Below are positions 19,635-35,001 of a stretch of DNA of 59,433 nt, piece by piece. Source of the DNA: Methylophaga sp. (GTDB lineage: Bacteria > Pseudomonadota > Gammaproteobacteria > Nitrosococcales > Methylophagaceae); assembly GCA_002696735.1 (NCBI GenBank), contig NZSL01000010.1, forward strand, positions 331,882 through 391,314. The letters run 5' to 3'. The notes beneath the pieces are model-generated. The model saw only the letters and a program-made list of their open reading frames with translations. It ran no database searches and had not been told where the DNA came from. Numbering within the stretch: position 1 is the stretch's first letter; each line of letters opens with the position of its first letter. Position numbers and translations under genes: made by a program.

Positions 19635-20016
19635 TTAACCACAGAGACACAGAGGGCACGGAGTTTTAATAGAAATTTATCCGCAGATTACGCAGATGAT
19701 ATTTAAAGATGCTTTCATGGAAGTTGTTATGCAGCTCTTCTATGTTTGAACATGAATATTAACCAGGGACAAATAGAAACCACGAAGCTCTATATAAATT
19801 GTTGGCGCAGTATAAGTATTTTCTACAGCGCTAAATTAATCAAAATCGAGCTATGCTCTGTTGATAGGCCAAAATACCTATCAATTAAGTTTTCAAAGTT
19901 TAATCTGCGTTCATCTGCGAAATCTGCGGATGACATTTTTTCTCACTGATATTCAAGGCCCAACGGCTTTAGTCGTAAAAACTTAATCTCTGTGTCCTCT
20001 GTGCCTCCGTGGTTAA
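19635..20016. repeat. Inverted-repeat element A (gene-less, 382 bp)
   Basis: The ends are inverted copies beginning TTAACCAC, with CACAGAG-type repeats at the tips. Inside lies a second inverted pair based on CCGCAGATTACGCAGATG (left 19679-19697, right 19901-19931). The centre of about 200 bp has no gene. The layout matches the element between dhaL and dhaK, minus its gene, so it looks like a miniature, non-autonomous relative. It fills most of the 671 bp between attR and the porin. The rest holds the tRNA terminator and the porin leader. Confidence 0.75.
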
Positions 20017-20225
20017 TTTAATTTTGCCCTACATAATATAGATAGAAAACCTACGTTGTTGTAAAAAACACACACATTCGTATCAAAATGACCAAATTCA
20101 CATTTTTTTGTTGTAAAAGTGTTGCAAAGGTTTTGTAGATGTGGAAAATACACTCTTAACCGCGAAACATTCCGGTTACGAGAGAAACTTAAAGTAATCT
20201 GTTAACAACTAGAAGGTGAACAGAC

Positions 20226-21410
20226 ATGAAAAAAACTACACTTGCTACATTAGTCGGCGCAGCGGCATTCGCAGCAGCCGGCGCAGCTAACGCGACAATC
20301 GTTGTTGGCGGCGAAAACGGATATGAATTTAGCGTTGACGGTAACATCAACCAATTCTTCATCCAAACGGATCAAGATAATGCTAACGGTGCAGGCGGCC
20401 AAGACAACTCACAAGTTGCCAACGGTCTGTTACCAACATTCTTCGGTTTTAACGTTAAAGCTCCTGAAATTAATGGTTTGACAGTAGCTGCGCGCGTATC
20501 TATCTCTCCATCAACTAACAATGGCAGCTACCTGCAAAACGGTAACGCTATGGAGCAACGTGAAGCGTTTGCTACGGTTGACGGTGCCTTTGGTCAAATC
20601 TTGATGGGTAAAGCTTTAGGCCTGTACTCTGCAAACAACATCTTGTTGGATCAAACATTATACGGTGTTGGTGCGACAGGTTTCACTGCTAACGGCAGCC
20701 AAAACACTGGTGCTACTTCTCTAGGCGGTATCGGTTGGGGTTATGAGTACGCTTACTGGCGCTCACAAATCCGTTGGACTTCAGCTGACATGAATGGCTT
20801 CAAACTCGCATTAGCTGTTGTTGATAACGACACAACCTTCATGCCTTCCCAAGTATCAGAAAAAGCTCCGCGTTATGAAGCTTCTTTGAGCTACGCAACA
20901 GCATTTGATGGTGGTTCTACCAAAATTTGGTTGGACGGCATGACTTCTGAAGTTGAACTTGGTGCGGCTGGTGATGAGCGTTCTGATGCTTGGACTTTGG
21001 GTGGTCAGTTAATATTGGGTGGCTTCGAAGCTGTTGCTGCTTACTATGACAGTAAAGGTCAAGGTGTTGCAGGCTTAGGTGGCCTCGGTGCTTATGATGC
21101 TGATGGTAGTGCTCGTGAAGGCGATGGTTACTACGCACAAGCTGGTTACCGTTTCGGTGGTCAAACATTAGTAGCAGCATCTTACGGTGAATCAACACTT
21201 GACGAAGATGATTCTATTGGTCCATTTGCTGCTGGCGGAGTCTATGATGATTTCGACAAAAATAGTCGTGTGACAATTGGTGTTTATCATGACGTAACTG
21301 CTAACCTGAAACTGGTTGCTGAATATTCAAGTCTTGAAACTGAATATCACTCTGCTGCAGATGATGATGAAGTTGATGTCTTTGCTATCGGTGGTTTCGT
21401 CAGCTGGTAA
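20226..21410 (+). CDS. Outer-membrane porin
   Basis: A 394-aa protein with a clear signal peptide (residues 1-23, cleaved after AANA). The mature part is rich in Gly, Ala, Asp, Ser and aromatic residues with alternating hydrophobicity, as in trimeric Gram-negative porins. The C-terminus ends in Trp (GGFVSW), the usual beta-barrel end signal. It would allow small solutes to cross the outer membrane. A GAAGGTGAAC ribosome site precedes the ATG. Strong terminators follow, so it is a single-gene unit, probably highly expressed. Confidence 0.88.
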   Translation: MKKTTLATLVGAAAFAAAGAANATIVVGGENGYEFSVDGNINQFFIQTDQDNANGAGGQDNSQVANGLLPTFFGFNVKAPEINGLTVAARVSISPSTNNGSYLQNGNAMEQREAFATVDGAFGQILMGKALGLYSANNILLDQTLYGVGATGFTANGSQNTGATSLGGIGWGYEYAYWRSQIRWTSADMNGFKLALAVVDNDTTFMPSQVSEKAPRYEASLSYATAFDGGSTKIWLDGMTSEVELGAAGDERSDAWTLGGQLILGGFEAVAAYYDSKGQGVAGLGGLGAYDADGSAREGDGYYAQAGYRFGGQTLVAASYGESTLDEDDSIGPFAAGGVYDDFDKNSRVTIGVYHDVTANLKLVAEYSSLETEYHSAADDDEVDVFAIGGFVSW

Positions 21411-21421
21411 GAAGTTATTTT

Positions 21422-21486
21422 CTAAACCCTCGGGTTTAGTTTAAAACTGATAAAAAGCCTCAACCTTCGGGTTGGGGCTTTTTTTT
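21422..21486 (+). terminator. Double terminator after the porin
   Basis: A first hairpin, CTAAACCC-TC-GGGTTTAG (21422-21439), is followed by a second with stem 21457-21465 and 21470-21478, a TTCG loop and eight T residues. Confidence 0.85.
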
Positions 21487-21571
21487 GCTTTCACTTTCTG
21501 CAGTGTGTAAAAAAACCTTGGTATTTACGCTAAAGTATCAGATGTTATTATCCGTAAACGCTGAGGTAAGT

Positions 21572-22204
21572 ATGTCAAACAATATGTCGCTATTGCCCTT
21601 TATCCATGCCATCAAAGAATCAATAAATGCTCATGCTGACGAAATTGCGCAGCTGGATCAGGCGATTGGCGATGGCGACCATCTGATTAACCTGCAACGT
21701 GGAATTGAGGCATTGCTGAAAAACATTGAAGATTTGGAGCAGCTTGAGTTTCCCGCCGCGTTGAGCAAAATCGGTATGACTTTGATGTCGACCATGGGCG
21801 GTGCATCAGGATCTTTATTTGGCTCCATGTTTGTCACCATGGGCAAAACAGCGAAAGATAAAACATTAGATTTAACGGGTATGACCGAAATATTTACCGC
21901 CGGGGTTGAATCTATCAAAGCCCGAGGGAAAGCCGACATTGGTGAAAAAACCATGCTTGATAGCTTAATTCCGGCATCAACCAGCCTGCAACAAAGCGTT
22001 AGCAATGAAGTTGAATTGTCCATCGCTCTGGATGATATGAAAAAAGCCGCGACTGAGGGAATGGAATCGACTAAGGATATGCTTGCAACCAAAGGCCGTG
22101 CATCCTTTCTGGGTGAACGCGCCCGGGGACATATCGATGCCGGTGCCCGCACCAGCCAGCTGATGTTGTGTGCTATTGCTGATGTGATTATTGAAAATCA
22201 TTAA
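21572..22204 (+). CDS. dhaL: Dihydroxyacetone kinase, ADP-binding subunit DhaL
   Basis: A 210-aa subunit that holds the nucleotide and phosphorylates dihydroxyacetone bound to DhaK. The family's metal-binding aspartates are visible as Asp29, Asp34 and Asp36 in LDQAIGDGDH. The nucleotide loop GGASGSLFGSMF follows. I chose the ATG at 21572, which has GAGGT 4 nt upstream, over an in-frame extension to 21485 that runs into the porin terminator. Unusually, dhaK is not beside it on the same strand but convergent and about 500 bp away. The stop codon coincides with the first bases of inverted-repeat element B. Confidence 0.92.
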   Translation: MSNNMSLLPFIHAIKESINAHADEIAQLDQAIGDGDHLINLQRGIEALLKNIEDLEQLEFPAALSKIGMTLMSTMGGASGSLFGSMFVTMGKTAKDKTLDLTGMTEIFTAGVESIKARGKADIGEKTMLDSLIPASTSLQQSVSNEVELSIALDDMKKAATEGMESTKDMLATKGRASFLGERARGHIDAGARTSQLMLCAIADVIIENH

Positions 22205-22681
22205 CCACAGAGACACAAAGTTTTAGTAGAGATTTATCCGCAGATTACGCAGATGGACGCAGATTAAGAACTAATCTTTTGTGTTGCAAAATAGTTGCCC
22301 CAAAATTGAGTAATAGTGCTTTTTGCAATTGCGAGGCTTTTAGGTAATTAATCATTTGGGCTTCTTCTAACCCTGACAGTTTTTGAAGTGCTTTAAGCTC
22401 AAGAATCAATGACTTGAAACAAACAAAATCAGCTTTATAAAAAGTGTTAAGTTGTTGCCCTCGATAGTAAATCGGTAGCGACATTTCTCTTACATAGTCT
22501 ATGCATCTGTCTTTAAATTCAATCTCCAGTGCTTCCTGATAAACAGACCCTAAGAACCCCGGACCTAATGCAGAGTGAACTCTCATTGCCGCACCGATAA
22601 TTTCGTATGTTTGCATATCCTTTTGCATAATCTGCGTCCATCTGCATAATCTGCGGATCACTAATAAAAGCTCAAACCACA
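22201..22681. mobile_element. Inverted-repeat element B carrying a GxxExxY gene
   Basis: The left end (22201-22267) starts TTAACCACAGAGACAC and contains CCGCAGATTACGCAGATG plus a third CGCAGATTA unit. The right end (22625-22658) holds the inverted copy, after which the outer tip has diverged. The enclosed gene uses the left repeat for its stop codon and the right repeat for part of its start codon. The element sits exactly between convergent dhaL and dhaK, with TTAA at the dhaL stop. No transposase is present. Confidence 0.7.
22245..22628 (-). CDS. GxxExxY-family PD-(D/E)XK protein
   Basis: A 127-aa protein of the PDDEXK_3 (GxxExxY) family. The nuclease-fold residues are in place: Asp67 in KADFV and Glu77-Leu-Lys79 in LELKA. 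The name-giving motif is altered: GFLGSVY has Gly27 where the family has Glu, so this copy may be degenerate. The C-terminal tail NLRPSA and the stop are encoded by the CGCAGAT repeat itself. The frame is open to 22688, but that part is repeat read-through, so I used the ATG at 22628. The biological role of the family is not established. It is on the same strand as dhaK and lies downstream of it. Confidence 0.8.
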   Translation of the reverse strand: MQKDMQTYEIIGAAMRVHSALGPGFLGSVYQEALEIEFKDRCIDYVREMSLPIYYRGQQLNTFYKADFVCFKSLILELKALQKLSGLEEAQMINYLKASQLQKALLLNFGATILQHKRLVLNLRPSA

Positions 22682-22708
22682 GCGACATCCATGTCGATTA
22701 ATTAAAAA

Positions 22709-23698
22709 CTAACAGCCCCAACGAAGTGCTGCGGTATGCACGGGGGCATCCCATAAGGCAATCATTTCTTCATCCAGTAAGGTCAAGGTCACCGAGCAAC
22801 CGGCCATGTCAAGAGATGTTGTGTAGTTACCCACTAATGAGCGTTTGATTTCAACACCTTTTTCTTCCCAAAATTTAGCGGCCAGATCGAATACCAGATA
22901 TAGCTCCATCAATGGTGTCGCACCAAAGCCATTTACATGCAAAAGCACCTGTTGACCGGCTTTAGGATTTAATTCTTTATCAATAGCAGCAGTAACATGC
23001 TGAACCAGCTCTTCAGCGGAGCTCATGGTCATCGGTTCGCGCCCTCTTTCACCGTGGATACCCACGCCCATTTCAATTTCGTTTTCACTAAGTTCAAATG
23101 TTGGGCGGCCCGCGGCTGGAACGGTACAGCTGGTTAACGCAAAGCCCATTGATGCGGTGTTATTGGCTACACGATCGCCAAGTTTTTTACATTGGTTTAG
23201 ATCTTTTCCTTGCTCTGCCGCAGCACCGACCATTTTCTCGACAATCAATGTTCCGGCTACCCCGCGGCGGCCAGTACTATGTGCTTCAGGTAACGAAACA
23301 TCATCTTTTACCAATACTGTTTCGTGCTGACATTCCAGCATTTCCGCGGCAATTTCAAAGTTCATCACATCGCCAGCGTAATTTTTAACAATGAACAACA
23401 CGCCAGCACCATTTTCAACGGATTCTGCCGCGGCCAGCATTTGATCCGGTGTCGGAGAGGTAAAGATTTGTCCGGGACAGGCAGCATCAAGCATACCTTT
23501 GCCTACCAGTCCGGTATGCAGTGGCTCGTGACCTGAACCACCACCAGAGATAACAGCAACTTTTGGTTCTGTTGATATGGTTGCACGACGCACAAATGCA
23601 GGCTGCTGTTGCAGAGAAACAATATCCTGATGTGCTTTGGCGAAACCATTAAGGCTTTCATCAAGCAGATTATCAACGTGATTAATTATTTTTTTCAT
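22709..23698 (-). CDS. dhaK: Dihydroxyacetone kinase, substrate-binding subunit DhaK
   Basis: A 329-aa subunit that binds dihydroxyacetone covalently. Motifs are SGGGSGHEP with His57, NYAGDVMNF with Asp110, and GIHGERG with His215, the residue that forms the hemiaminal with substrate. Separate DhaK and DhaL subunits are typical of PTS-dependent kinases, in which DhaM recharges the nucleotide on DhaL. No full DhaM is in the window, but EIIA-Man, HPr and EI genes lie at 45144-47565. A strong GGGAG site precedes the start. The gene is 18 bp downstream of a HAD phosphatase gene. Confidence 0.95.
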   Translation of the reverse strand: MKKIINHVDNLLDESLNGFAKAHQDIVSLQQQPAFVRRATISTEPKVAVISGGGSGHEPLHTGLVGKGMLDAACPGQIFTSPTPDQMLAAAESVENGAGVLFIVKNYAGDVMNFEIAAEMLECQHETVLVKDDVSLPEAHSTGRRGVAGTLIVEKMVGAAAEQGKDLNQCKKLGDRVANNTASMGFALTSCTVPAAGRPTFELSENEIEMGVGIHGERGREPMTMSSAEELVQHVTAAIDKELNPKAGQQVLLHVNGFGATPLMELYLVFDLAAKFWEEKGVEIKRSLVGNYTTSLDMAGCSVTLTLLDEEMIALWDAPVHTAALRWGC

Positions 23699-23716
23699 TC
23701 TCTCACTCCCCTTTCT

Positions 23717-24550
23717 TTAAAGCTGTTTTAATAACGCTGTTATTTCCTGAATATCCTGGAAAACCCAATCCGGTTTGTAATCAATCTCCGCCAGATCAGC
23801 TTCAGATGACACGCCGGTTAACACCATAATGCTGCGCATACCGGCATTCACGGCCCCTAAAATATCTGTGTTCAACCTGTCACCGATGGCGATTGTATTA
23901 TGTTTATCAGTACCCAGAATCTCAAAAGCCTGTTGATACAAAATAGGTTCAGGCTTACCAATGACAATGGGCTCAATCCCCGTCACAGCGGTTAATGCTG
24001 CCAGCACACCACCATTTCCCATCACTTCACCCAATTCAGTGGGTAAGGTCGTATCGGCATTAGTCGCATAGAATTCTGCACCAGCCCGGAGATTTAAGGT
24101 TGCTGTGGCCAATTTGTTCCAGTTAAGTTGTCTATCCAGACCAGAAACCACAATATCCGCCCAGATATCATCTGTTTCTGCATCAGGATCAGCAGGATAA
24201 TAGGTTGAGGTCACGGTAAACCCCTGCTGTTGCAAAGGTTCGATAAGACCGGACTCACCAATGACAAATACTCTCCGTTTCGCTGCAGGCAATGTATCCA
24301 CCAGATAGCGGGCAGTCGCCATACTGGAGGTGAGAATCTCGTTGGCTGATACCTCAACCCCCATGTCCGCGAGTTTTTTTAGATATTGCTGTTGCGTCAA
24401 ACTGGCATTATTTGTCGCAAGTACAAATGGAATTTTTTTGGCGCGCAATGTAGAAAAAAACTCTGTTAATCCTGGCAACGGTTTACTACCCTGCCATAAG
24501 ACACCATCCATATCGATGATGAATGCACCCAGATCGTTGATTGTTTGCAT
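23717..24550 (-). CDS. HAD-superfamily phosphatase, NagD-like (class IIA)
   Basis: A 277-aa phosphatase. Motif I is IDMDGVL (nucleophile Asp in the first ten to twenty residues), motif II is LATNNAS, and motif III/IV is near GKPEP and IGDRLNTDILGA. The cap lies between motifs II and III, as in NagD and phosphoglycolate or 4-nitrophenyl phosphatases. It is the first gene of a likely two-gene operon with dhaK and is divergent from hps1, so a sugar- or triose-phosphate substrate is plausible. The actual substrate cannot be read from sequence. Confidence 0.85.
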   Translation of the reverse strand: MQTINDLGAFIIDMDGVLWQGSKPLPGLTEFFSTLRAKKIPFVLATNNASLTQQQYLKKLADMGVEVSANEILTSSMATARYLVDTLPAAKRRVFVIGESGLIEPLQQQGFTVTSTYYPADPDAETDDIWADIVVSGLDRQLNWNKLATATLNLRAGAEFYATNADTTLPTELGEVMGNGGVLAALTAVTGIEPIVIGKPEPILYQQAFEILGTDKHNTIAIGDRLNTDILGAVNAGMRSIMVLTGVSSEADLAEIDYKPDWVFQDIQEITALLKQL

Positions 24551-24665
24551 GATTACCTGCTTATCAAATAATGTTATTGAAATGAAACTTGAAAAAGCGT
24601 CGCACAGAACAAAATAGGCTGTCCAGTTATAAACGAACGCGAAAATCGTTAAAAACCCGGAAAAA

Positions 24666-24695
24666 TTGACATAAATGAACCTTGTGCTTTATAGT
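24666..24695 (+). promoter_or_regulatory. Sigma-70 promoter of hps1
   Basis: TTGACA (24666-24671) and TATAGT (24690-24695) are 18 bp apart, about 60 bp before the hps1 start. The hps2 promoter has nearly the same hexamers and the same spacing. Confidence 0.75.
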
Positions 24696-24755
24696 CTGCG
24701 AGCGTATTTTCAACGTAAAACTACAAATTAAATCAATTATTAGGAGCATGTCAGC

Positions 24756-25397
24756 ATGGCAAAAGCACTTATCCAAATGGCTCTGGATTCTCTGGACTTC
24801 GATCAAACTCTCGCATTGGCAGAACAAGTTGCACCTTATGTCGACATTCTTGAAGTCGGTACACCTTGCATTAAATACAATGGCTTGGAAATCGTCACTG
24901 CCCTGAAAACCAAATTCCCTAACAACCTGATTCTGGTTGACCTGAAAACAATGGATGCTGGTGAATATGAATCAACTCCATTCTACGAAGCAGGCGCAGA
25001 TATCTGTACTGTTCTTGGTGTATCTGATAAAGCAACTATGGGCGGCGTAATCAAAGCAGCCAATGCTAACAATGCAGAAGCCCAAATTGACTTGATCAGC
25101 GTTAAAGACAAAAAAGCTGTTGCAACTGAAGCCGCTAAAAACGGTGCGCAAATCATCGGTGTTCACACTGGTTTGGATGCGCAAGCAGCTGGTCAAACAC
25201 CATTTGCTGATCTGCAAGCAATCGCTTCATTGAATCTGGGTGTACGTATTTCTGTTGCTGGTGGTCTGAACAAAGACACCATCCAGAAAACAATCCAAGC
25301 TGGCGCAACTATCGTTGTCGTTGGTGCTGCTATCTACGGCGCACCTTCTCCAGCAGATTCTGCTAAAGAACTGCGCGCATTGGTTGATGCTGCGTAA
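24756..25397 (+). CDS. hps: 3-hexulose-6-phosphate synthase (copy 1)
   Basis: A 213-aa TIM-barrel enzyme of the OMP decarboxylase superfamily that condenses formaldehyde with ribulose 5-phosphate, the entry step of the RuMP cycle. The start MALDSLDF, VDILEVGTPCIKYNG, the catalytic DLKTMDAGEYE and the phosphate-binding end VAGGLNKDTI and VVVGAAIYGA are all present. It is nearly the same as the second copy at 27268. It has its own strong promoter and its own terminator, so it is a monocistronic unit. RBS TTAGGAGC lies before the ATG. Confidence 0.97.
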   Translation: MAKALIQMALDSLDFDQTLALAEQVAPYVDILEVGTPCIKYNGLEIVTALKTKFPNNLILVDLKTMDAGEYESTPFYEAGADICTVLGVSDKATMGGVIKAANANNAEAQIDLISVKDKKAVATEAAKNGAQIIGVHTGLDAQAAGQTPFADLQAIASLNLGVRISVAGGLNKDTIQKTIQAGATIVVVGAAIYGAPSPADSAKELRALVDAA

Positions 25398-25420
25398 GCA
25401 GAACAAACAGTAGCATAAAT

Positions 25421-25454
25421 AAAAACGAGTGGCCCTGTGCCACTCGTTTTTTTT
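25421..25454 (+). terminator. Terminator of hps1
   Basis: ACGAGTGGC (25425-25433) pairs with GCCACTCGT (25439-25447) around a CCTGT loop, with A residues before and a run of T residues after. Confidence 0.9.
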
Positions 25455-25508
25455 ACGCTTAGCTGACTCATCCGGATTTAATGTTGCAAGTTCTGCCGGT
25501 ATAACTTA

Positions 25509-25556
25509 TTGACCATGCAGATAAATTGGTCAAAAACAGCAGAGCGTGATTATAAT
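25509..25556 (+). promoter_or_regulatory. Promoter with a palindromic operator before the TGVERYIR-repeat gene
   Basis: A perfect -10 hexamer TATAAT lies at 25551-25556. Upstream is a perfect inverted repeat, TTGACCA (25509-25515) and TGGTCAA (25527-25533), separated by 11 bp. Its right arm overlaps the expected -35 region (TTGGTC at 25526-25531). This suggests regulator control. The mRNA leader would be about 110 nt. Confidence 0.5.
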
Positions 25557-25671
25557 CCGTAGTCTGCAATCCTGCTGGCTTGCCACACAGAATCTAAAAT
25601 AGTAATTTACCCGTTGCACCAACCTCATCATGTTGGGCAGATGGGGTTAAAAATGTAACAGGGGTATACTC

Positions 25672-25986
25672 ATGAGTGATAAAGGATTTTTTGCTTCAAT
25701 CTGCAGCTTTTTTAAAGGCTTGTTTTCGTCTGACAATGACAGTTGTTGTAAACCGGAATCAAAAACTGCAGCAGCACCGAAAAATACAAATGATGGTTTA
25801 ACAGGTGTAGAACGCTACATCCGCAACCAATCACAAAGCGGTTCAAAATTAACTGGTGTTGAAAAATATATTCGCAACAAACTGTCAGCAAATAAACCGA
25901 TGACAGGTGTTGAAAGATACATTCGCAGCAAAGCTAATGCCGCTCCATTAACCGGTGTTGAGCGTTATATTCGCAGCAAAGCTTAA
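25672..25986 (+). CDS. 104-aa protein with four TGVERYIR repeats in the RuMP cluster
   Basis: The protein has an N-terminal amphipathic or hydrophobic stretch (GFFASICSFFKGLF, residues 5-18), a CC pair at 25-26, a flexible Ala/Lys/Asn linker, and then four near-identical short motifs. These start at residues 43, 60, 77 and 93 and read [LM]TGVE[RK]YIR. The spacing of 16-17 residues and the low-complexity linkers suggest a disordered chain with four identical docking sites. It lies between hps1 and tal and has its own leader and promoter. No enzyme motif is seen. A scaffold or anchor for cluster enzymes is an inference. The family is not one I recognise. Confidence 0.75.
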   Translation: MSDKGFFASICSFFKGLFSSDNDSCCKPESKTAAAPKNTNDGLTGVERYIRNQSQSGSKLTGVEKYIRNKLSANKPMTGVERYIRSKANAAPLTGVERYIRSKA

Positions 25987-26125
25987 TTAGCCTTTATTAC
26001 GAATAACTTACCCGCCACCTAATGATGGTGGGAAAATAATCGGTATTAAACCGGCTATGGTCGTCGTGATATTAAAAAAATTTTAAGCTCAACAGCTCTA
26101 CAAACTAACTCAAGAAGGTAAGAAA

Positions 26126-27109
26126 ATGGCGAATTTACTTGATCAATTAAAGCAAATGACCGTCGTTGTTGCTGATACGGGTGATATTCAAGCAATTGAA
26201 AAATACACTCCACGTGATGCAACAACCAACCCATCACTGATTACAGCTGCAGCGCAAATGCCTCAGTATCAAGGCATTGTTGACGATACATTGAAAGCAG
26301 CACGTCAATCACTTGGCGCTGATGCACCTGCATCTGAAGTTGTCTCTTTGGCTTTTGACCGTCTGGCCGTATCTTTTGGTCTGAAAATTCTGGAAATCAT
26401 CCCAGGTCGTGTTTCTACTGAAGTAGATGCCCGTCTTTCTTATGACACTGAAGCCACTATCGCTAAGGGTCGTGACCTGATTGCACAATACGAAGCAGCA
26501 GGTGTTTCACGTGATCGCATTCTGATCAAAATTGCTTCAACATGGGAAGGCATTCAGGCTGCAGCCGTTTTGGAAAAAGAAGGTATTCACTGTAACCTGA
26601 CTCTGCTGTTTGGTCTGCACCAAGCCGTAGCCTGTGCTGAAAATGGTATTACGCTGATTTCTCCATTTGTTGGACGTATCCTTGACTGGTATAAAAAAGA
26701 TACTGGTCGTGATTCATATCCTTCAAACGAAGATCCAGGTGTACTGTCAGTCACAGAAATTTACAGCTACTACAAAAAATTTGGTTATAACACTGAAGTT
26801 ATGGGTGCAAGTTTCCGTAACGTTGGTGAAATCACTGAATTGGCGGGTGTTGACTTGCTGACCATTTCTCCAGCTCTGTTGGATGAATTACAAAACACAG
26901 AAGGCACTCTGGAGCGTAAACTGTCTCCAGAAGTCGCAGCTAAATCTGATGTTGCAAAACTGAATTTGGACAAAGCCACTTTCGATGCCATGCATGCTGA
27001 AAACCGCATGGCAGCAGAAAAACTGTCAGAAGGTATCGATGGTTTTGCCAAAGCACTGGAATCACTGGAAGAACTGCTGGCTACACGTCTGGCAAATCTG
27101 GAAAGCTAA
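26126..27109 (+). CDS. tal: Transaldolase
   Basis: A 327-aa class I transaldolase of the TalB type, which transfers a dihydroxyacetone unit between sugar phosphates in the regeneration part of the RuMP cycle. The TTNPSL motif (33-38) and the Schiff-base lysine Lys135 in [11 protein letters not shown] are present. [12 protein letters not shown] and the length match the family. AGAAGG precedes the ATG. It ends at a strong hairpin, so it forms its own transcript or ends a short one begun upstream. Confidence 0.97.
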
Positions 27110-27128
27110 TTATTGATTAGCAATCTGC

Positions 27129-27166
27129 AATCAGGTTGCGGATTATCCGCAACCTGATTCAACAGA
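27129..27166 (+). terminator. Hairpin after tal
   Basis: A perfect 14-bp stem (27129-27142 with 27146-27159) has a 3-nt loop. Only a short T run follows at 27167-27170, so termination may be partial. Confidence 0.7.
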
Positions 27167-27177
27167 TTTTGGCTCAA

Positions 27178-27267: not shown

Positions 27268-27903
27268 ATGGCTGAAATTCAAATGGCTCTGGATTCATTG
27301 GATTTTGACGCAACTATGGCGCTGGCTGAACAAGTCGCACCTTACGTCGATATTCTGGAAATCGGTACACCTTGCATCAAGTACAACGGTCTGAAATTAG
27401 TTAAAGCTCTGAAAGCTGCTCACCCAGACAAGAAAATTCTGGTTGACCTGAAAACTATGGATGCTGGTGAATACGAAGCAACTCCTTTCTTTGAAGCTGG
27501 TGGTGATATCACTACTGTATTGGGTGCTTCTGATGAAGCGACCATGAAAGGTGTTATCAAAGCTGCAAACGCTAACAATGCAGAAGCTCAAATCGATTTG
27601 ATCGGTGTTGAAGACAAATCTGCTGTTGCAAAACAAGCTGCTGCTAACGGCGCGCACATCATCGGTGTTCACACTGGTCTGGACGCTCAAGCTGCTGGTC
27701 AAACTCCATTCGAAGATCTGAAAACCATCGCTGGTCTGGGTCTGAATGTTAAAGTTTCTGTTGCTGGTGGTATCAACAAAGACACCATTCAAAGCACAGT
27801 TCGTGCTGGTGCTGATATCGTTGTTGTTGGTGCTGCAATCTATGGCGCACCTTCTCCAGCAGAATCTGCTAAAGAACTGCGTGCATTGGTTGACGCAGCA
27901 TAA
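27268..27903 (+). CDS. hps: 3-hexulose-6-phosphate synthase (copy 2)
   Basis: A 211-aa paralogue of the protein at 24756, with the same catalytic and phosphate-binding motifs (DLKTMDAGEYE, VAGGINKDT, VVVGAAIYGA). Differences are scattered and mostly conservative. Unlike copy 1 it is followed 11 bp later by the isomerase gene, so this is the operon copy that makes both enzymes together. TTAGGAG lies before the ATG. Two copies with similar strong promoters suggest a high demand for formaldehyde fixation. Confidence 0.97.
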   Translation: MAEIQMALDSLDFDATMALAEQVAPYVDILEIGTPCIKYNGLKLVKALKAAHPDKKILVDLKTMDAGEYEATPFFEAGGDITTVLGASDEATMKGVIKAANANNAEAQIDLIGVEDKSAVAKQAAANGAHIIGVHTGLDAQAAGQTPFEDLKTIAGLGLNVKVSVAGGINKDTIQSTVRAGADIVVVGAAIYGAPSPAESAKELRALVDAA

Positions 27904-27914
27904 GGATTAGTAAA

Positions 27915-28454
27915 ATGACAATGCATCGTGATCTAGTTGTAAACAAAATCACTGATATTCTGAAGGCAACTGACAGTTCACTTGAAGCCGAATTTGTTGC
28001 TATGTGTGATGATGCCAAGCGCATCTTCATCACAGGCGCAGGTCGTTCAAGACTGGTAGGCAACTTTCTGGGTATGAGATTGATGCATAGTGGTTATACC
28101 GTCTATGTTCAAGGTGAAATCAGTACACCAAGTATCCGTGAAGGCGATTTGTTAATCGTTATTTCCGGTTCTGGTGAAACAACACAGCTGGTTTCATTTG
28201 CTAATAAAGCTAAATCTGAGAATGCTAAAGTGGTTTTGATTTGTTCAAAATCCAGTTCAACGATTGGTGATATCGCAGATAAAACAATTCAGATTGGTAC
28301 TGATAATAGCTTTGCCCCAACAAAGGGCATGCCAATGGGAACCATGTTTGAATTGTCTACTTTGATTTTCCTGGAAGCCATCGTTTCTCATTTAATTCAT
28401 GAGAAAGGTATTCCAGAAGAAGAAATGAAATATAGACACGCTAATATGGAATAA
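27915..28454 (+). CDS. hpi: 6-phospho-3-hexuloisomerase
   Basis: A 179-aa sugar-isomerase (SIS) domain enzyme that converts hexulose 6-phosphate to fructose 6-phosphate, the second RuMP step. The phosphate-binding stretches GAGRSRLVGNFLGMRL and ISGSGETTQ, and the C-terminal GTMFELS, are those of the family. It is translated from an AAGGATTAG site right after hps2 and followed by a strong terminator. Confidence 0.96.
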   Translation: MTMHRDLVVNKITDILKATDSSLEAEFVAMCDDAKRIFITGAGRSRLVGNFLGMRLMHSGYTVYVQGEISTPSIREGDLLIVISGSGETTQLVSFANKAKSENAKVVLICSKSSSTIGDIADKTIQIGTDNSFAPTKGMPMGTMFELSTLIFLEAIVSHLIHEKGIPEEEMKYRHANME

Positions 28455-28480
28455 CCACTTTCCTTAGCAAAAAATAAAAA

Positions 28481-28510
28481 ACGGGCAATCTTCGGGTTGC
28501 CCGTTTTTTT
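28481..28510 (+). terminator. Terminator of hps2-hpi
   Basis: ACGGGCAA (28481-28488) pairs with TTGCCCGT (28497-28504) and is followed by a T run, with A residues upstream. Confidence 0.9.
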
Positions 28511-28580
28511 ATGTCTGTCGTTCTCGTCCTTCAAAACGGTATAATATCTGGCTATTTAAATTAAATCGGTTCTGAGAGTT

Positions 28581-29984
28581 ATGTCCGCCAAAACACTTTA
28601 TGACAAATTATGGGATCAACATGTTATCCGCAGCGAACAGGATGGTACTGCACTGATTTATATTGATCGTCATCTGGTTCACGAAGTCACCTCTCCGCAG
28701 GCTTTTGAAGGCTTGCGCCTGGCTGGCCGTATTCCATATCGTTTGAATTCAATTTTGGCAACGCCGGATCACAATGTACCAACCAGCCATCGTGAACAAG
28801 GTATTGCCGATCCAATTTCACGGTTACAGGTTGAAACGCTGGATCAAAATTGCGCACAATTTGGTATTACTGAGTTTGGCCTGAATGATTTACGTCAGGG
28901 CATTGTGCATGTTGTCGGCCCGGAACAGGGCGCTACCCTACCTGGTATGACGGTAGTTTGTGGTGACTCGCATACCTCTACGCATGGTGCTTTTGGTGCA
29001 TTAGCTTTTGGTATTGGTACATCGGAAGTTGAGCACGTAATGGCAACGCAATGCCTGATTCAACGCAAATCCAAGAACATGCTGGTAAAAGTCGAAGGAC
29101 ATGTAAACCCAGGTATTACGGCGAAAGATATCGTTCTGGCCATTATCGGTAAAATTGGTACCGCTGGCGGTACCGGCTACGCCATTGAATTCGCCGGTGA
29201 AGCCATTCAGGATTTATCCATGGAAGGACGGATGACTGTTTGCAACATGACGATTGAAGCAGGTGCCCGTGCTGGAATGATCGCTGTGGATGACACAACA
29301 ATTAATTATCTGAAAGATCGCCCTTTTGCGCCTAAGGGGGAAAACTGGGATAAAGCCATGGCAGCCTGGCGTGACTTACACAGTGATGCTGATGCGCATT
29401 TTGATAAGGTCGTGGTACTGGATGCCAACCAAATCAAACCTCAGGTTACCTGGGGCACCTCCCCAGAAATGGTGGTTCCCGTTGATGCCAATATTCCAGA
29501 TCCCGCTGCAGAAAGTGATGCTGTGAAACGCAATGGCATGCTGAAAGCACTGAAATACATGGGCTTGAATGCGAATCAGCCAGTTCAGGAGATTCGTCTG
29601 GACAGAGTATTTATCGGTTCCTGCACCAACTCACGTATTGAAGATTTACGCGAAGCTGCTGCAGCAATTAAAGGCGGAAAGGTCTCCGCTACTGTAAAGC
29701 AAGCGATGGTTGTTCCGGGATCGGGATTAGTGAAACAACAGGCTGAACAGGAAGGTCTGGATAAAATCTTTGTAGAAGCAGGCTTTGAATGGCGTGATCC
29801 AGGTTGCTCGATGTGTCTGGCAATGAATGCAGATCGTCTGGAAGCAGGTGAACATTGTGCCTCTACATCCAATCGCAACTTTGAGGGACGTCAGGGGCAA
29901 GGTGGTCGTACACACCTGGTGAGTCCTGCAATGGCGGCAGCCGCGGCAATTGCCGGCCACTTTGTTGATATTACTACGCATTAA
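28581..29984 (+). CDS. leuC: 3-isopropylmalate dehydratase, large subunit
   Basis: A 467-aa aconitase-family enzyme of leucine synthesis that needs LeuD as partner. The N-terminus ([12 protein letters not shown]), the substrate loop DHNVPTS, and the cluster ligands in IGSCTNSR and [11 protein letters not shown] are in place, so the 4Fe-4S site is complete. A TATAAT at 28540-28545 could be its -10 box. leuD and leuB are not next to it. prmB follows with a TAATG overlap, which is not the usual leuCD order, so the small subunit must be encoded elsewhere. Confidence 0.97.
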
Positions 29985-30913
29985 TGGCGACCAATTATCA
30001 AGCCGCTGAGGCTGAACTCAGTACCTTGCGTGATTTTCTGCGATGGACCACCTCACGGTTTGAAGAAGCCAGATTATTTTTTGGTCATGGCAATAACGAT
30101 GCGTTTAATGAAGCCACACAACTGATTCTGCATAGCCTGAAACTTCCGGTAACTAAATTACCGGAATTGTTTCTCGATGCAAGGCTGTGTAGTGCTGAAA
30201 AACAGGCTTTATTGCATTTGGTCAAACGGCGAATTGAAGAACGGGTACCTGTTCCCTATCTGACGCATGAAGCCTGGTTTGCTGGCCTGCCTTTTTATGT
30301 CGATGAACGTGTACTCATTCCACGTTCTCCTTTTGCCGAATTAATTGATAGCCAATTTGCTCCCTGGTTACAGGATGCAGATTCGGTCGAACGTATTCTG
30401 GATATGTGTACTGGCAGTGCCTGCATCGCAATTGCACTGGCCATGACGTTTGAAGGTGCTGAAGTTGATGCTGTTGATATCAGTGATGAAGCGTTGAGCG
30501 TCGCCCAGATTAATAAAAACAAACATTTGCTCGGAGATGAGCTGTCGCTTATAAAATCAGATCTATGGACGGAATTAAATCAATCTCGCCAATATGATTT
30601 GATTATCAGTAATCCCCCGTACGTGGGGGATCTTGAGATGTCCAGCTTACCAGCGGAATATCATCATGAACCGGTCCATGCGCTGCAGGCTGATGATAAT
30701 GGTCTTGCTCTGGTAGAACAGATCATTATTGGCGCAGCGACGTTTCTTTCGCCACAGGGATTATTGTTTGTTGAAGTAGGCAATAGCGATCTCGCAGTGG
30801 ATGAAAGATGGCCGGAAACACATTTTTTATGGCTGGATCTGGAGCAAGGTGGTCATGGGATCTTTATGCTGACCCAAGCACAATGTGCTGAGTTTGCAGC
30901 CGCTTATTCCTGA
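29984..30913 (+). CDS. prmB: Ribosomal protein L3 N5-glutamine methyltransferase
   Basis: A 309-aa SAM-dependent enzyme that methylates a glutamine of ribosomal protein L3. An N-terminal helical domain (EARLFFGHGNNDAFNEA) is followed by the SAM motif ILDMCTGSACIAIALA and the catalytic NPPYVG. The N-terminal features favour PrmB over the release-factor enzyme PrmC. It is translationally coupled to leuC. Its end overlaps by 10 bp the end of the convergent GGDEF gene. Confidence 0.93.
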   Translation: MATNYQAAEAELSTLRDFLRWTTSRFEEARLFFGHGNNDAFNEATQLILHSLKLPVTKLPELFLDARLCSAEKQALLHLVKRRIEERVPVPYLTHEAWFAGLPFYVDERVLIPRSPFAELIDSQFAPWLQDADSVERILDMCTGSACIAIALAMTFEGAEVDAVDISDEALSVAQINKNKHLLGDELSLIKSDLWTELNQSRQYDLIISNPPYVGDLEMSSLPAEYHHEPVHALQADDNGLALVEQIIIGAATFLSPQGLLFVEVGNSDLAVDERWPETHFLWLDLEQGGHGIFMLTQAQCAEFAAAYS

Positions 30914-32223
30914 GTTTCACTGACCGGACTTTCAGACTCTGACTCAAAAATCCTTACACAATTACGGCCCGCCATTTTAGCCTGATACATTGCCCGATCA
31001 GCCATTTCAAACAGGCTGTTAAGCGTGTCCTGTTTATCCTGTCGAAGCGTTGCCACACCAACACTGATTGTAATACCGATACCAGCGGGCTTAAATCGCG
31101 TCAGCCGTTTCTGCATACGTTGCATCAACAGTGCCGCAGTCTGATTGTCACAACCTGGTAAAAGCAAGACAAACTCTTCACCGGACCAGCGGGCAATCAT
31201 ATCAACATCACGAACGTGGCGTTTGAGCCAGTTACCCAATTCCGCCAGCAGATTGTCGCCACGGACAAAACCATACTGTTCGTTGATGGCTCGAAAATGA
31301 TCTAAATCGATAACCGCCATCGCCAAATCACGTTTGAATCGATAGGCCTCACTTAAATATTTACCGGCAAATTCCCGTAGTGCATGACGGTTAAATAATT
31401 GCGTCAGCTCATCCAGCATTGCCAGACTGCATAGTGAGTTTTGCTGTGCCCGCAGTTCTCGGAAATTCTGATAGCTGGTAATGTGATTAAACACCCGTTG
31501 ACGCAGTTCTTCACGGACAATCGGTTTAGAAACAAAATCATTTACGCCGAGATGAAATAACTCAATTTTGCGTGACACATTATCAAAGCCGGAAGTCGCG
31601 ATGATGGGTACATTGCCATAGTCTTCACGCAAACGACGAATCTTTCTCACCAGCGTAATTCCGCTCATACTGCCCTCCAGCATGATATCGGTAATCACCA
31701 GATCATAATCGCCGCCACTGAAGGCCTCCCATGCTTCTTCTGCAAAGGTATAAGCATCAACATCCAGCCCCATATCGGTTAATAAATCGATAATGATGGT
31801 CTGTAAAACCCGGGAATCTTCGATAAACAGTACTCGGCCGGATAACTGGCGGGTTTCGCGCTGAGCCAGGCGTTGCACATAAATACCTAATTCGGATTCG
31901 TCATGCTTGCTGAAAATGTCGGTGGCACCGGCCAGCAATGCCTGCTTGAGGGTTCGGGCGTTATCCGTTTCTGTCATCACCAGCACAGCAGCATAATCAT
32001 AGCCGTTGATTGCTCGTAATTGACCGCAGAACTCGCTGCCAGCGATATCCGACAGATCATCACTGCAACAAACTAATCGATATCGTGTCTGCTGAGCATG
32101 TTCAAGACCTTGATTCCCAGTCTCTGCGTGGTCCACTTCAAACCCGGCAGCCGATAATAGTGCACGAGCCTTATTACGAAATTCAGTAGATGCGTCTACT
32201 ACTAATGCATTGAGTTTTTGCAC
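30904..32223 (-). CDS. Two-receiver response regulator with diguanylate cyclase domain
   Basis: A 439-aa PleD-like protein (REC-REC-GGDEF) that would make cyclic di-GMP. Receiver 2 has its phosphorylation Asp in YDLVITDIM. In receiver 1 the matching position is Ser54 (LVCCSDDLSD), so it is probably not phosphorylated and may serve in dimer contacts. The cyclase active site reads SGEEF, an accepted variant of GGDEF. RDVD five residues before it is a likely inhibitory I-site. The start is GTG at 32223, with AGGA upstream. No partner kinase is near. Confidence 0.92.
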   Translation of the reverse strand: MQKLNALVVDASTEFRNKARALLSAAGFEVDHAETGNQGLEHAQQTRYRLVCCSDDLSDIAGSEFCGQLRAINGYDYAAVLVMTETDNARTLKQALLAGATDIFSKHDESELGIYVQRLAQRETRQLSGRVLFIEDSRVLQTIIIDLLTDMGLDVDAYTFAEEAWEAFSGGDYDLVITDIMLEGSMSGITLVRKIRRLREDYGNVPIIATSGFDNVSRKIELFHLGVNDFVSKPIVREELRQRVFNHITSYQNFRELRAQQNSLCSLAMLDELTQLFNRHALREFAGKYLSEAYRFKRDLAMAVIDLDHFRAINEQYGFVRGDNLLAELGNWLKRHVRDVDMIARWSGEEFVLLLPGCDNQTAALLMQRMQKRLTRFKPAGIGITISVGVATLRQDKQDTLNSLFEMADRAMYQAKMAGRNCVRIFESESESPVSETQE

Positions 32224-32269
32224 TATGCCAATCCTTTATTCTAATGTGCATTCTGCCTGTTGCTGAACA

Positions 32270-32971
32270 TTAACAGCAAGCTTTCCCTGACAGAATTTGT
32301 TGCGTAAAACTTGTCCGAAGGTAAAAACCACAAGGATGATACCATTCTTCCTCGCCGTCATGCCCTATCTGCCGGGTAATTACCCGACTATTGGCTGCTT
32401 TGGGCCTTATCTGTAAAAAACGTCCCAGTTTCGCTGTCACGGCACCTTCAGCTATCATTATTTCCATCAACTCTTCCCAGTCCTGCTGCAGCACTGTTTC
32501 CTGCTGTTCTGAAGGCTGCCATAAAATCGCCTGTCCAATAAATCGATCCGCTAATGCTATAGCGTTATCGGCTTCAACCGGCAACCACAAAACCTTGCTC
32601 AGTTTACGACGTAACCATGATGTCTGCCAATGCGTTTCAGACAGAGCTTTGGGAGTCACCGTGCAGACATATGTCGATTCTTTTGGCTCACCGCGGGTAT
32701 TCAATGGAATGGTTTTTAATTCAATACCCAAAGCAACAAAATCCGGTTCCGCTTGATTACCGGCATCGGCGCCCAGAATGCGCTCCAGTAGATTCCCTAA
32801 CCAACCTTTATGACGGCGCAAATCTACAGGAACCGTCAGGCCGGATTGCTGTGCAAGCTGACCCACCGTTTTGCCAGCTATTTGTTGGCAACGATGCATC
32901 AGTTCAGCTTCAGAGGCAGGGGGAGAAACTGGAACCGGTTCCGGGTAAATATGATCAGACATGAGTGACAT
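32270..32971 (-). CDS. mutH: DNA mismatch repair endonuclease MutH
   Basis: A 233-aa nicking enzyme that cuts the unmethylated strand at hemimethylated GATC sites during mismatch repair. The active-site set Asp77, Glu84 and Lys86 (DFVALGIELKT) is complete, and the length fits. The start may be either of two in-frame ATGs (32971 or 32962). Presence of MutH implies a Dam methylase elsewhere in the genome. It is divergent from yadG. Confidence 0.95.
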   Translation of the reverse strand: MSLMSDHIYPEPVPVSPPASEAELMHRCQQIAGKTVGQLAQQSGLTVPVDLRRHKGWLGNLLERILGADAGNQAEPDFVALGIELKTIPLNTRGEPKESTYVCTVTPKALSETHWQTSWLRRKLSKVLWLPVEADNAIALADRFIGQAILWQPSEQQETVLQQDWEELMEIMIAEGAVTAKLGRFLQIRPKAANSRVITRQIGHDGEEEWYHPCGFYLRTSFTQQILSGKACC

Positions 32972-33010
32972 GATAATCTAGTACGTTTAAATCTGCTTAA
33001 GGCGATTCCG

Positions 33011-33934
33011 GTGAAAGCGCTTACTATAGAACATCTGAATAAAACCTATCGCAATGGCTTGGAAGCACTCAAAGATATCAATCTGACGGTTGAAGAAGGT
33101 GATTTTTTTGCACTGTTAGGGCCAAATGGCGCTGGCAAATCCACTACCATCAGCATTCTAACGTCGTTAGTCACAAAAACCAGTGGCTCGGTAACCATCT
33201 TTGATGCCGATCTGGACAGTCAAACCGAGTTGGCTAAAAGTTATATCGGGTTGGTGCCGCAGGAATTTAATTTTAATGGTTTTGAGCAGGTTAAACACAT
33301 TCTGGTGACGCAGGCAGGCTATTACGGAGTTCCAGCAAAAGAGGCCGAACCGCGAGCCGATGTCTTGCTGAAACAATTAGGACTTTGGGAAAAACGTCAT
33401 ACGCCTTCAAGATCATTATCTGGAGGTATGAAGCGCCGATTGATGATTGCCCGGGCGCTGGTACACAATCCACGCCTGCTTATATTGGATGAGCCAACAG
33501 CGGGTGTGGATATTGAGCTGCGGCGCTCAATGTGGGTGTTTTTACGTGAAATCAATCAACGTGGCACCACTATCATCCTGACGACGCACTATCTTGAAGA
33601 AGCGGAAAATCTGTGTCGCAATATTGCCATCATCGACAAGGGCCGTATCGTTGAAAATACTGATATGAAATCGTTATTAAATCGCCTGGATAAAGAAACT
33701 TTTGTACTGGATCTGCTGGAACCTCTGACTGACAGCAGTTTGCTACAGGGGATTGAATATCATCAGGTAGATCCAACAACTATAGAGGTCGAACTTCAGC
33801 GCCAGGAGGGCCTGAATGATTTATTCACGGTGTTAACCGAACGCGGCATAAAAGTAGGCAGTATGAAAAACAAGGTGAATCGTCTCGAAGAATTATTTTT
33901 AACCCTGGTTGAACGTCCGGAGTCTGTTGAATGA
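33011..33934 (+). CDS. yadG: ABC-2 type exporter, ATP-binding protein
   Basis: A 307-aa ATPase with Walker A GPNGAGKST, signature LSGGMKRR, Walker B LLILDEPTAGVD and the H-loop TTHYLEEAE. The stretch LVPQEFNFNGFEQV and the end KANRLEELF-type (here NKVNRLEELFLTLVE) match E. coli YadG closely in my memory of that family. The start is GTG at 33011. Its stop overlaps the permease start by 4 bp. The exported substrate of YadGH is not known. Confidence 0.92.
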   Translation: MKALTIEHLNKTYRNGLEALKDINLTVEEGDFFALLGPNGAGKSTTISILTSLVTKTSGSVTIFDADLDSQTELAKSYIGLVPQEFNFNGFEQVKHILVTQAGYYGVPAKEAEPRADVLLKQLGLWEKRHTPSRSLSGGMKRRLMIARALVHNPRLLILDEPTAGVDIELRRSMWVFLREINQRGTTIILTTHYLEEAENLCRNIAIIDKGRIVENTDMKSLLNRLDKETFVLDLLEPLTDSSLLQGIEYHQVDPTTIEVELQRQEGLNDLFTVLTERGIKVGSMKNKVNRLEELFLTLVERPESVE

Positions 33935-34710
33935 ATAACCGCCGCCAGCATCACTGGATTGCCTTTTCAACCATCGTCACCCGGGAAATCAGGCGATTCC
34001 TGCGGATTTGGGCTCAAACGCTGTTACCACCAGCGATAACCATGACGTTATATTTCATTATTTTCGGTAATCTGATTGGTAGCCGAATTGGTGAGATGGA
34101 GGGTTTCAGTTATATGGAATATATCGCCCCCGGCATCATCATGATGGCGATTATCAACAATGCCTATTCCAATGTCGCTTCGTCTTTTTTCAGTGCCAAG
34201 TTTCAAAATCATATTGAAGAGCTGATGGTTTCTCCCGTTCCCAACTATATTATCCTCGCAGGATATGTTGTCGGTGGAGCAGCCCGCGGCCTGTTTGTTG
34301 GACTCATTGTGACATTGGTTTCACTGATATTTACCAAACTTACCGTTCAACATATCGGTATTACCATTAGCATGGTCTTTCTCAGTGCCGTCATGTTTGC
34401 ATTAGGCGGATTTATTAACGCCTTATACGCCCGCAGCTTTGATGAAGTCTCAATCATTCCAACCTTTATCCTCACCCCGCTGACTTATCTGGGTGGCGTA
34501 TTTTATTCGATATCACTACTGCCCGAGTTCTGGCAAAACGTTTCCATGCTGAATCCGGTTTTATACATGGTCAATGCATTCCGTTATGGCATTTTAGGTG
34601 TTTCGGATATTCCGGTAGCCGCTGCTTTTGCCATCATCCTGGCCTTTATCGCTGCACTGACAAGCTATGCGCTTTATCTGCTGCATAAAGGTACTGGCTT
34701 AAGGAATTGA
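33931..34710 (+). CDS. yadH: ABC-2 type exporter, permease
   Basis: A 259-aa membrane protein with six likely helices and the ABC-2 family block PLTYLGGVFYSISLLPEFWQ. The N-terminal TLLPPAITMTLYFIIFGNLIGSRIG matches YadH. It is coupled to yadG by a 4-bp overlap. The gene ends 6 bp before inverted-repeat element C. Confidence 0.92.
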   Translation: MNNRRQHHWIAFSTIVTREIRRFLRIWAQTLLPPAITMTLYFIIFGNLIGSRIGEMEGFSYMEYIAPGIIMMAIINNAYSNVASSFFSAKFQNHIEELMVSPVPNYIILAGYVVGGAARGLFVGLIVTLVSLIFTKLTVQHIGITISMVFLSAVMFALGGFINALYARSFDEVSIIPTFILTPLTYLGGVFYSISLLPEFWQNVSMLNPVLYMVNAFRYGILGVSDIPVAAAFAIILAFIAALTSYALYLLHKGTGLRN

Positions 34711-34716
34711 AGAGCA

Positions 34717-35001
34717 TTAATCACAGAGACACAGAGGGCACAGAGTTTTATAAATAGCTTGTGGCTTATGTTGACTGACGTTTAAGTGGTGTTTTAAGGC
34801 ATTTAAAAAATAATCCGCAGATTACGCAGATGCACGCAGATTAAATAAATGGTTTTCAGGTTGATGCAGTAATGCATCACAAAAGAACTCTGAGGGCTAG
34901 CTTCTTTCAAACCGACTTGTTAAAGCATTCATAAAACATCTGCGAAAATCTGCGTAATCTGCGGATATAACAACCAAAAGCCTCTGTGTCTCTGTGGTTA
35001 C
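34717..35001. repeat. Inverted-repeat element C (gene-less, 285 bp)
   Basis: The left tip TTAATCACAGAGACACAGAG and the right tip (read inversely, AACCACAGAGACACAGAG) are near-perfect inverted copies. The inner inverted pair is built on CCGCAGATTACGCAGA (left 34814-34840, right 34937-34967). It occupies the whole gap between the convergent yadH and dusA genes and has no gene. It belongs to the same family as the elements at 19635 and 22201. Confidence 0.75.

Follow-up and report, generated by a model that had tools for sequence, protein, structure and literature searches.

GxxExxY nuclease genes between convergent 7-mer arrays: a candidate mobile cassette in Methylophaga and other prokaryotes

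Nucleases of the PD-(D/E)XK class have been tied to gene movement in two described systems. Kingston et al. 2017 (PMC5350276) proposed that Rpn nucleases move genes by a break and template switching without RecA, and the available text of that paper also describes two separate Rpn insertions at one intergenic site. In the accessible part of Flood et al. 2016 (PMC4853749), the hupL miniature inverted-repeat transposable element (MITE) of Ca. Thiomargarita nelsonii was suggested to derive from a PD-(D/E)XK_2 gene. Here we describe a stretch of 59,433 nucleotides from Methylophaga sp. (contig NZSL01000010.1; the whole stretch is called the window), in which a gene of the GxxExxY family, encoding a small PD-(D/E)XK nuclease, lies between convergent arrays of 7-nucleotide repeats (7-mers). 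That the gene and its arrays form a unit is well supported, and we lean towards the reading that GxxExxY elements are mobile cassettes, each ~0.45-0.5 kb long, whose nuclease drives cassette exchange; the role of the nuclease in this exchange is a proposal from sequence comparison.

The Rpn (YhgA-like, PF04754) proteins are likewise PD-(D/E)XK nucleases tied to gene movement but constitute a different family, and no bracketing arrays are reported for Rpn in the text available. The hupL MITE resembles our locus in that gene-less inverted-repeat elements are tied to a PD-(D/E)XK gene, but as described in the accessible text it is of the PDDEXK_2/YhgA type, with 19 bp inverted repeats and 10 bp direct repeats, whereas we found 7-mer arrays and detected no direct repeat. 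Both would thus serve as precedents for the idea rather than for the GxxExxY family. RAYT (TnpA-REP), the enzyme linked to repetitive extragenic palindromes (REPs), is a Y1 HUH enzyme; the REP/RAYT system also ties small intergenic palindromes to an endonuclease gene, and some element interiors in our source genome resemble what we take to be GTAG-tagged REPs, but at our locus 7-mer arrays in pairs take the place of single palindromes, and the gene is of the PD-(D/E)XK class rather than one for a Y1 HUH enzyme. REP elements are given as single palindromes of 20-40 bp in the available text of PMC3733652. A DDE insertion sequence with its MITEs would share the inverted terminal repeats with our locus but not the miniature copies that retain the interior of an autonomous element, since here only the arrays are common, nor the transposase gene, since the gene-bearing element carries GxxExxY only. 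Homing endonuclease elements resemble our locus in that the cassette is a nuclease gene and that related genomes differ in the allele occupying the site, but the window cassette is intergenic and bounded by inverted arrays and is neither an intron nor an intein. The open-licence literature yielded no account of these arrays or of a GxxExxY function, and the repeat strings were absent from bacterial papers there (the single match was a paper on human prostate cancer), an earlier description elsewhere being possible; the papers naming GxxExxY or PF13366/PDDEXK_3 hold, in the text available, nothing on arrays, mobility or function.

A first-pass annotation of the window had listed three inverted-repeat elements, at 19635-20016 (element 1), 22201-22681 (element 2) and 34717-35001 (element 3), with common tips and inner repeats and with a GxxExxY/PDDEXK_3 gene in the middle one only. 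Direct reading bore out the three elements and the position of the gene; the shared tips and inner repeats are also present, but they belong to two separate array families that nest in each other and that have, in relatives, each its own GxxExxY type. All three elements are nested composites with inverted arms, in which outer B arrays (TTAAC-CACAGAG-CACAGAG-CACRGAG) enclose inner A arrays (CGCAGAT-CGCAGAT(-CGCAGAT)), each arm comprising up to three 7-mers positioned 8-10 bp apart. In element 2, the left B tip is a remnant (22201..22220, plus strand; TTAAC followed by CACAGAG and CACAAAG) and the right B tip is unrecognisable. The GxxExxY gene, as the sole gene of this element, is placed directly inside the A arrays, i.e. 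the left array at 22239..22264 (plus strand, three CGCAGAT) and the right array at 22630..22658 (minus strand, three ATCTGCR), with the cassette between them at 22269..22622. The open reading frame (ORF) at 22245..22688 on the minus strand encodes 147 aa with a conserved core at ~22245-22610; its stop codon lies within the left array and its first residues are translated array sequence. Profile search matched this ORF to TIGR04256 GxxExxY (E = 3.3e-39, 133.9 bits vs. a cut-off of 35), and in Pfam scans PDDEXK_3 (PF13366) was the only match above cut-off (E = 4.9e-36, 124.1 bits vs. 22), with no match to PF04754/PDDEXK_2.

The same architecture recurs in other prokaryotes. A profile built from 10 GxxExxY proteins (A2) was run against a single genome for each species, and the 80 top-scoring loci out of at least 580 were retained; because A2 was drawn from a single large clade, the 80 loci lean to that clade and not to the window's own. 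The set represents 18 named NCBI phyla and an unranked division and includes two archaeal loci, one of them with arrays, and the array-bearing loci span 17 named phyla. Convergent arrays were paired (within 260 bp) at 50 of the 80 loci vs. 3 of 496 random windows of the same loci; among loci with full flanks, 48/72 had array pairs vs. 6/558 control ORFs of 100-300 aa, and with a looser unit pattern the count was 58/80 vs. 6/558. In the 80-locus figures, L099, L104, L147 and L158, whose flanks are truncated at contig ends, score as misses. In addition, the best inverted repeat scored at least 14 in 49/80 loci vs. 1/491 controls. Over 99 elements, three units were present in 151 of 198 arrays, with unit spacings of 8 (188 cases), 9 (146) and 10 (35), a median first-to-last unit length of 473 bp and TT[AC]AC as the majority letters at both tips; the usual form of the element is three 7-mers per array, 8-10 bp apart, with a TT[AC]AC tip.

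Within the class to which the source genome belongs, array pairs were found by the looser pattern at 34 of 42 GxxExxY genes vs. 0 of 76 ORFs, with 4 more of the 42 having inverted repeats scoring at least 14. This sample used 43 of 54 listed places (the 42 plus the window gene), with G073:C2:730738 judged by eye; contig-edge or partial pieces were left out, and L294, L307 and L310 were unused. GxxExxY genes occur in 36 of 232 genomes of the class: where a genome has at least two A or B matches the gene is present in 11 of 16 cases, vs. 25 of the other 216 (Fisher p = 7e-7), and the link holds without the window's genus (9/14 vs. 25/216, p = 1.4e-5); A matches were counted with at most one mismatch and B matches as exact.

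The 7-mer also changes with the protein. Besides CACAGAG, we found CACGGAG, CACGAAG, CGCAGAG, CGCAAAG, CGCCAAG, CACGGAA, CGCAGAT, CACGAAT, ACAGGAT and others, and the distance between proteins correlates with the distance between 7-mers (Mantel r = 0.53 for 96 loci and 0.46 for 36 non-redundant loci; 0 of 5000 permutations reached either value). On a quick tree the 7-mer requires 40 changes vs. a shuffled mean of 60.6, with 0 of 200 shuffles as low. This correlation shows that gene and arrays travel together. The protein comparisons cover 96 of 99 array loci, leaving out L114 and L304 (stops) and one 64-codon row; the unit of L155 was re-phased by hand, G240 and G245 were re-cut, and the window gene, whose arrays were missed by the array script, is outside the 96 and the 99. 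A few rows, such as L054 and L145 with identical flanks, represent one gene taken from two collections, and these duplicates were dropped in the non-redundant test. The link is also visible inside a single genome: G073 harbors five GxxExxY loci with four array types, namely CACGAAG, ACAGGAT, CGCAGAT-ACGTGAAT-ACGTTGAT and, twice, CGCCAAG. Both genes of the CGCCAAG pair are truncated or degenerate, and one of them is nested in a further array pair.

These data bear on the possibility that the arrays are moved by another enzyme encoded elsewhere, with GxxExxY as a frequent passenger, e.g. a defence or addiction gene. Such a passenger role would agree with the gene-less state of 12 of the 13 paired elements in the source genome, with one element there that carries other ORFs (one weakly HEPN-like), with arrays in genomes that have no GxxExxY gene, with 47 B-array pairs in viral contigs that gave no tblastn match to GxxExxY, and with the report, in the part of the literature available, that Rpn, another PD-(D/E)XK family, acts as an anti-phage toxin-antitoxin system. 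A mere passenger, however, is at odds with a 7-mer that changes with the GxxExxY clade, also within G073. Nor does any other gene accompany the elements regularly: the widest neighbour family besides GxxExxY, the glutamine amidotransferases (trpG and carA by sequence reading), reaches only ~6 of 80 loci, and no transposase or other mobility gene was recognised in the 12 widest neighbour families of the 80 loci, a search with transposase profiles not having been made. We consider the passenger explanation unlikely.

Comparison of relatives provides evidence for mobility, as the first-pass annotation had envisaged in describing gene and repeats as a mobile unit without a known transposase. Our genus search covered the window genome and 23 others, and the site of the window gene (site 2, between convergent genes read as dhaL and dhaK) was readable in 18 of the 23; G244 was not anchorable, and G241, G247, G249 and G253 were left out. 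Site 2 is empty, with a gap of a few bases, in 9 of these 18 and filled in the other 9, four with a type A GxxExxY gene in A arrays and five with a type B gene in B arrays. Both orientations occur, as the type A element is flipped in G245, and type B has one orientation in G238, G143 and G248 and the opposite one in G243 and G234; G234 additionally displays the symmetric nesting B-A-B(gene)-A-B. The site of element 3 is filled in 9 of 19 genomes (the left A array alone being clear in G234 and G243) and empty in 10, including G237, and the site of element 1 has arrays in 7 of 15, none in 7 and one unreadable case. Element 1 (query 19641-20016) is inverted in G238 (72% identity) and G240 (69%) and in the same orientation in G239 (85%), whereas element 3 is inverted in G238 (82%) and G239 (81%) and has a different interior in G240. 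Outside these sites, G254, the sister of G073, retains an outer array pair around a different inner element; a seemingly clean empty site in G254 was rejected as it resembles a deletion at short homology. The comparison of empty and filled sites yielded empty sites but no detectable target duplication: across 99 elements whose age is not known, none of 343 settings gave a signal (best z 2.1); one possible repeat of 6-7 bp was seen by eye at site 3 of G239.

The allele at site 2 is also replaced in relatives, in the manner of a homing-type element. Between the window and G240, the cassette at 22269-22622 is 97.5% identical vs. 83.6% for the dhaL flank and 86.2% for the dhaK flank, while between the window and its closer relative G239 the cassette is 67.8% identical vs. 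91.3% for dhaL and 94-97% for the arrays. The G239 dhaK flank figure of 72.9% is an artefact of the stretch end, sliding windows giving 0.87-0.97 to ~23000, and the low array identity for G240 (71%) arises because its arrays are shorter. The switch in identity falls at the A arrays on both sides (Fisher p = 5e-12). A weaker case is the type B cassette of G238, which is 81% identical to that of G234 and 79% to that of G243, with flanks of 71-74%.

It may be argued that the elements are not mobile at all but are structural or regulatory intergenic palindromes that owe their distribution to the usual routes of horizontal transfer and homologous recombination. In line with such a role, hairpin interiors are common by eye, and most same-type pairs at site 2 (13 of 16) have a cassette identity near or below that of the flanks. 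We nevertheless judge it very improbable, given 220 A-array matches in one genome (G073), clean empty sites, different GxxExxY types at one site and an identity switch at both arrays.

We propose that the enzyme would recognise its own 7-mers and cut at or near the array, whereupon repair might copy in another array-bounded cassette, by homing-like exchange or template switching, or invert the resident one. New array sites might arise through rarer events that leave no detectable target duplication, and gene-less pairs might be sites with a non-coding or lost cassette that are acted on in trans. Alternatively, the nuclease could be a true stand-alone transposase-like enzyme that cuts out the array-bounded unit and integrates it directly at new sites, the ends being joined by host repair and gene-less pairs being moved in trans, a proposal that would be compatible with gene and arrays occurring together in 17 named phyla, with arrays far outnumbering genes in some genomes (e.g. 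83 B matches vs. 3 GxxExxY gene matches in G057), with empty and filled sites among relatives and with a common interior sequence in 7 of the 13 elements of the source genome. Direct insertion fits less well with the lack of a target duplication signal over the 99 elements, with the unrelated interiors of the three window elements and of 11 elements in G073, and with recurrent occupation of the same sites. Moreover, PD-(D/E)XK enzymes hydrolyse DNA, and none is known to join strands unaided. We regard a transposase-like enzyme as possible, if on the unlikely side.

Several findings weigh against a nuclease-driven cassette. As judged by the 16 same-type pairs at site 2, from which the G239 copy is excluded, 13 have the cassette near or below flank identity, as in vertical descent, and exchange is thus occasional; there is a single clear array-bounded exchange (source genome and G240) and one weaker (G238 with G234/G243), and ordinary homologous recombination breaking by chance at both arrays could account for it. 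Phylum, too, is tracked by the protein tree (30 changes vs. 40.8 shuffled), so that kinship contributes to the correlation between 7-mer and protein, and co-inheritance alone could explain it; the 7-mer of the nearest neighbour is within one letter in only 18 of the 36 non-redundant loci (11.2 expected). The first-pass annotation asked whether GxxExxY genes are always bracketed by the repeats; usually they are, but 24 of 72 loci by the strict pattern and 22 of 80 by the looser one, some of these cut by contig ends, had no paired arrays, so the case of genes without repeats is confined to a minority. Conversely, 5 of the 16 class genomes with two or more array matches lack a GxxExxY gene, and G073, with its 220 near-exact CGCAGAT matches, has no GxxExxY gene in plain CGCAGAT arrays. 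Finally, the motif glutamate has been lost from the GxxExxY copy in the window, and insertion at array-free sites requires another step.

Whether this type of mobile element amounts to a new class, in which a stand-alone Cas4/lambda-exonuclease-like nuclease would read a clade-specific 7-mer, present up to three times in each of two mirror-image arrays, and the arrays would act as docking sites for insertion, exchange and inversion, we see as evenly balanced; such a class would explain a family of small intergenic repeats that is among the most widespread in environmental prokaryotes. If the nuclease-driven cassette proves true, an annotated but unexplained protein family would gain a function, intergenic repeats seen in 17 named phyla would be explained, and a nuclease of ~120 residues would suffice to operate a mobile element that lacks a transposase. 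The clade-specific 7-mers already provide a collection of candidate pairs for protein-DNA recognition, and array-bounded exchange, if true, might become a compact genome-editing tool.

With respect to the protein itself, the GxxExxY motif is not intact in the window copy, which reads GFLGSVY, with glycine replacing the eponymous glutamate that is kept in at least 90% of 25 aligned proteins. The glutamate is present in the G240 copy, which is 96% identical to the window protein, and the reading frame of the G239 copy is interrupted by a stop; in view of the replacement in the window and the stop in G239, the type A gene may be decaying in the window lineage. The ratio of nonsynonymous to synonymous substitution rates (dN/dS) was calculated for 16 pairs, 11 of them saturated, without the G239 copy. 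It was 0.06-0.10 in three unsaturated type B pairs, indicating purifying selection, and 0.05 for the window vs. G242 (dS 4.4) and 0.35 for the window vs. G240. As its first residues lie in array sequence, the annotated start of the window ORF is probably wrong. Similar N-termini, such as NHRDTETQ, SPQRHGGTE and MNPGDTETQR, were noticed in L047, L049, L101 and the window (22611-22688); since these stretches are translated array, some GxxExxY starts are probably misplaced.

In GxxExxY alignments a D is invariant or nearly so and ExK and QxxxY are invariant, in agreement with the PD-(D/E)XK class. An AlphaFold2 model of a relative, L093, rather than of the window protein, adopts a PD-(D/E)XK fold (predicted local distance difference test 95.6, predicted template modelling (TM) score 0.87). 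With Foldseek, its best match was Cas4 SSO0001 (4ic1; probability 0.87, E 0.012, TM 0.42), followed by lambda exonuclease, the fdxN-element excision factor and others with TM 0.3-0.5, none with E < 0.001; we take the top matches to be PD-(D/E)XK enzymes. Judging from this model, Cas4 and lambda exonuclease would be the closest solved folds for the GxxExxY family, which differs from them in being bracketed by its own arrays. At the profile level, Cas4 (PF01930) stayed below cut-off for L093 (16.8 bits vs. 22.7), with a weak PADLOC match (E = 6e-4), and did not match the window protein. A sequence search of the PDB with profile A3, built from 44 of the 80 loci, gave no relative up to E = 10.

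In the source genome (G000, 3.30 Mb), the A pattern CCGCAGATTACGCAGATG had 22 matches with up to 2 mismatches vs. 0 for the reversed pattern, and the B pattern ACCACAGAGACACAGAG had 23 vs. 1, so the arrays are not due to chance. The count of inverted pairs called for by the first-pass annotation came to 13 paired elements and one solo array by eye, with a single GxxExxY gene. By coordinates, a B site lies no more than 120 bp away from 17 of the 22 A sites and the two families are thus associated far beyond chance, but nesting of A within B is not universal, since three of the 13 elements (C2:401390, C5:316180 and C5:317646) have A outside B in the left arm.

Elements 1 and 3 have the two-family layout in full. 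In element 1, a left B array (19635..19663, plus strand; TTAAC and three CACRGAG; pattern match C5:351519) and a left A array (19682..19697, plus strand; two CGCAGAT) precede a non-coding interior (19698..19902), which is followed by the right A array (19903..19930, minus strand; three ATCTGCG) and the right B array (19988..20017, minus strand; three CTCYGTG and GTTAA). Element 3 comprises the left B array (34717..34745, plus strand; TTAAT and three CACAGAG), the left A array (34817..34841, plus strand; three CGCAGAT), a non-coding interior (34842..34937), the right A array (34938..34965, minus strand; three ATCTGCG) and the right B array (34982..35001, minus strand; two CTCTGTG and GTTAC). 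The first-pass annotation regarded these two gene-less elements as miniature derivatives of element 2. We rejected this, and with it any origin by deletion, because the interiors of the three elements have no detectable similarity, with arrays alone in common; among 15 elements of G073, the 11 interiors compared were likewise all different. We read gene-less array pairs as pairs that hold other or decayed cassettes.

Further observations concern the neighbourhood and vehicles of these elements. GxxExxY elements adjoin a gene read as trpG-like in the three proteobacterial loci L093, L134 and L150 and one read as carA-like in L111, L123 and L135, reflecting either recurrent sites or long vertical descent. 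L097, L101 and L105 each carry another GxxExxY ORF at a distance of up to ~4 kb. Sites 2 and 3 themselves lie in gaps between convergent genes, but we do not claim a preference for such gaps, as 63 loci, in a crude count based on ORFs, comprised 39 tandem, 9 divergent, 3 convergent and 12 far cases, against a background of 60 tandem, 23 divergent and 18 convergent. Phages and plasmids were rejected as vehicles, as one GxxExxY query had no match among 50,697 phage records and 8 matches among 72,556 plasmid records, and one relative was found in viral contigs.

Other interiors vary widely. Seven of the 13 elements in the source genome (C2:390374, 392779, 401390 and 201656; C5:141140, 316180 and 317646) have a common interior repeat of the GTAGGTYGGGTTAGCG type, presumably akin to a GTAG-tagged REP. 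The interior of C5:149363-150026 is a dispersed repeat with many matches in genus genomes and is inverted in G237:C33 and G244:C161. L314:2641-4148 (C5:141140-142647) is a 1.5 kb array-bounded element with two other ORFs, the first encoding a small, by eye apparently membrane-bound protein and the second a protein of 170 aa with weak HEPN-type matches (Cas13a, E 7e-4; Csx1/Csm6, E 2e-3). Of the 47 B pairs in viral contigs, 42 span less than 160 bp and 44 less than 250 bp, many with a central hairpin by eye. Several B pairs of 83-89 bp in L340, L359, L373, L338 and L384, on two contigs of one sample (IMGVR 3300037755), have mostly related hairpin interiors and appear as multicopy mini-elements, and the pairs at L375:3711 and L375:5167 enclose other inner arrays (CGCAAAG and CGCGAAT), a nesting like that of the window.

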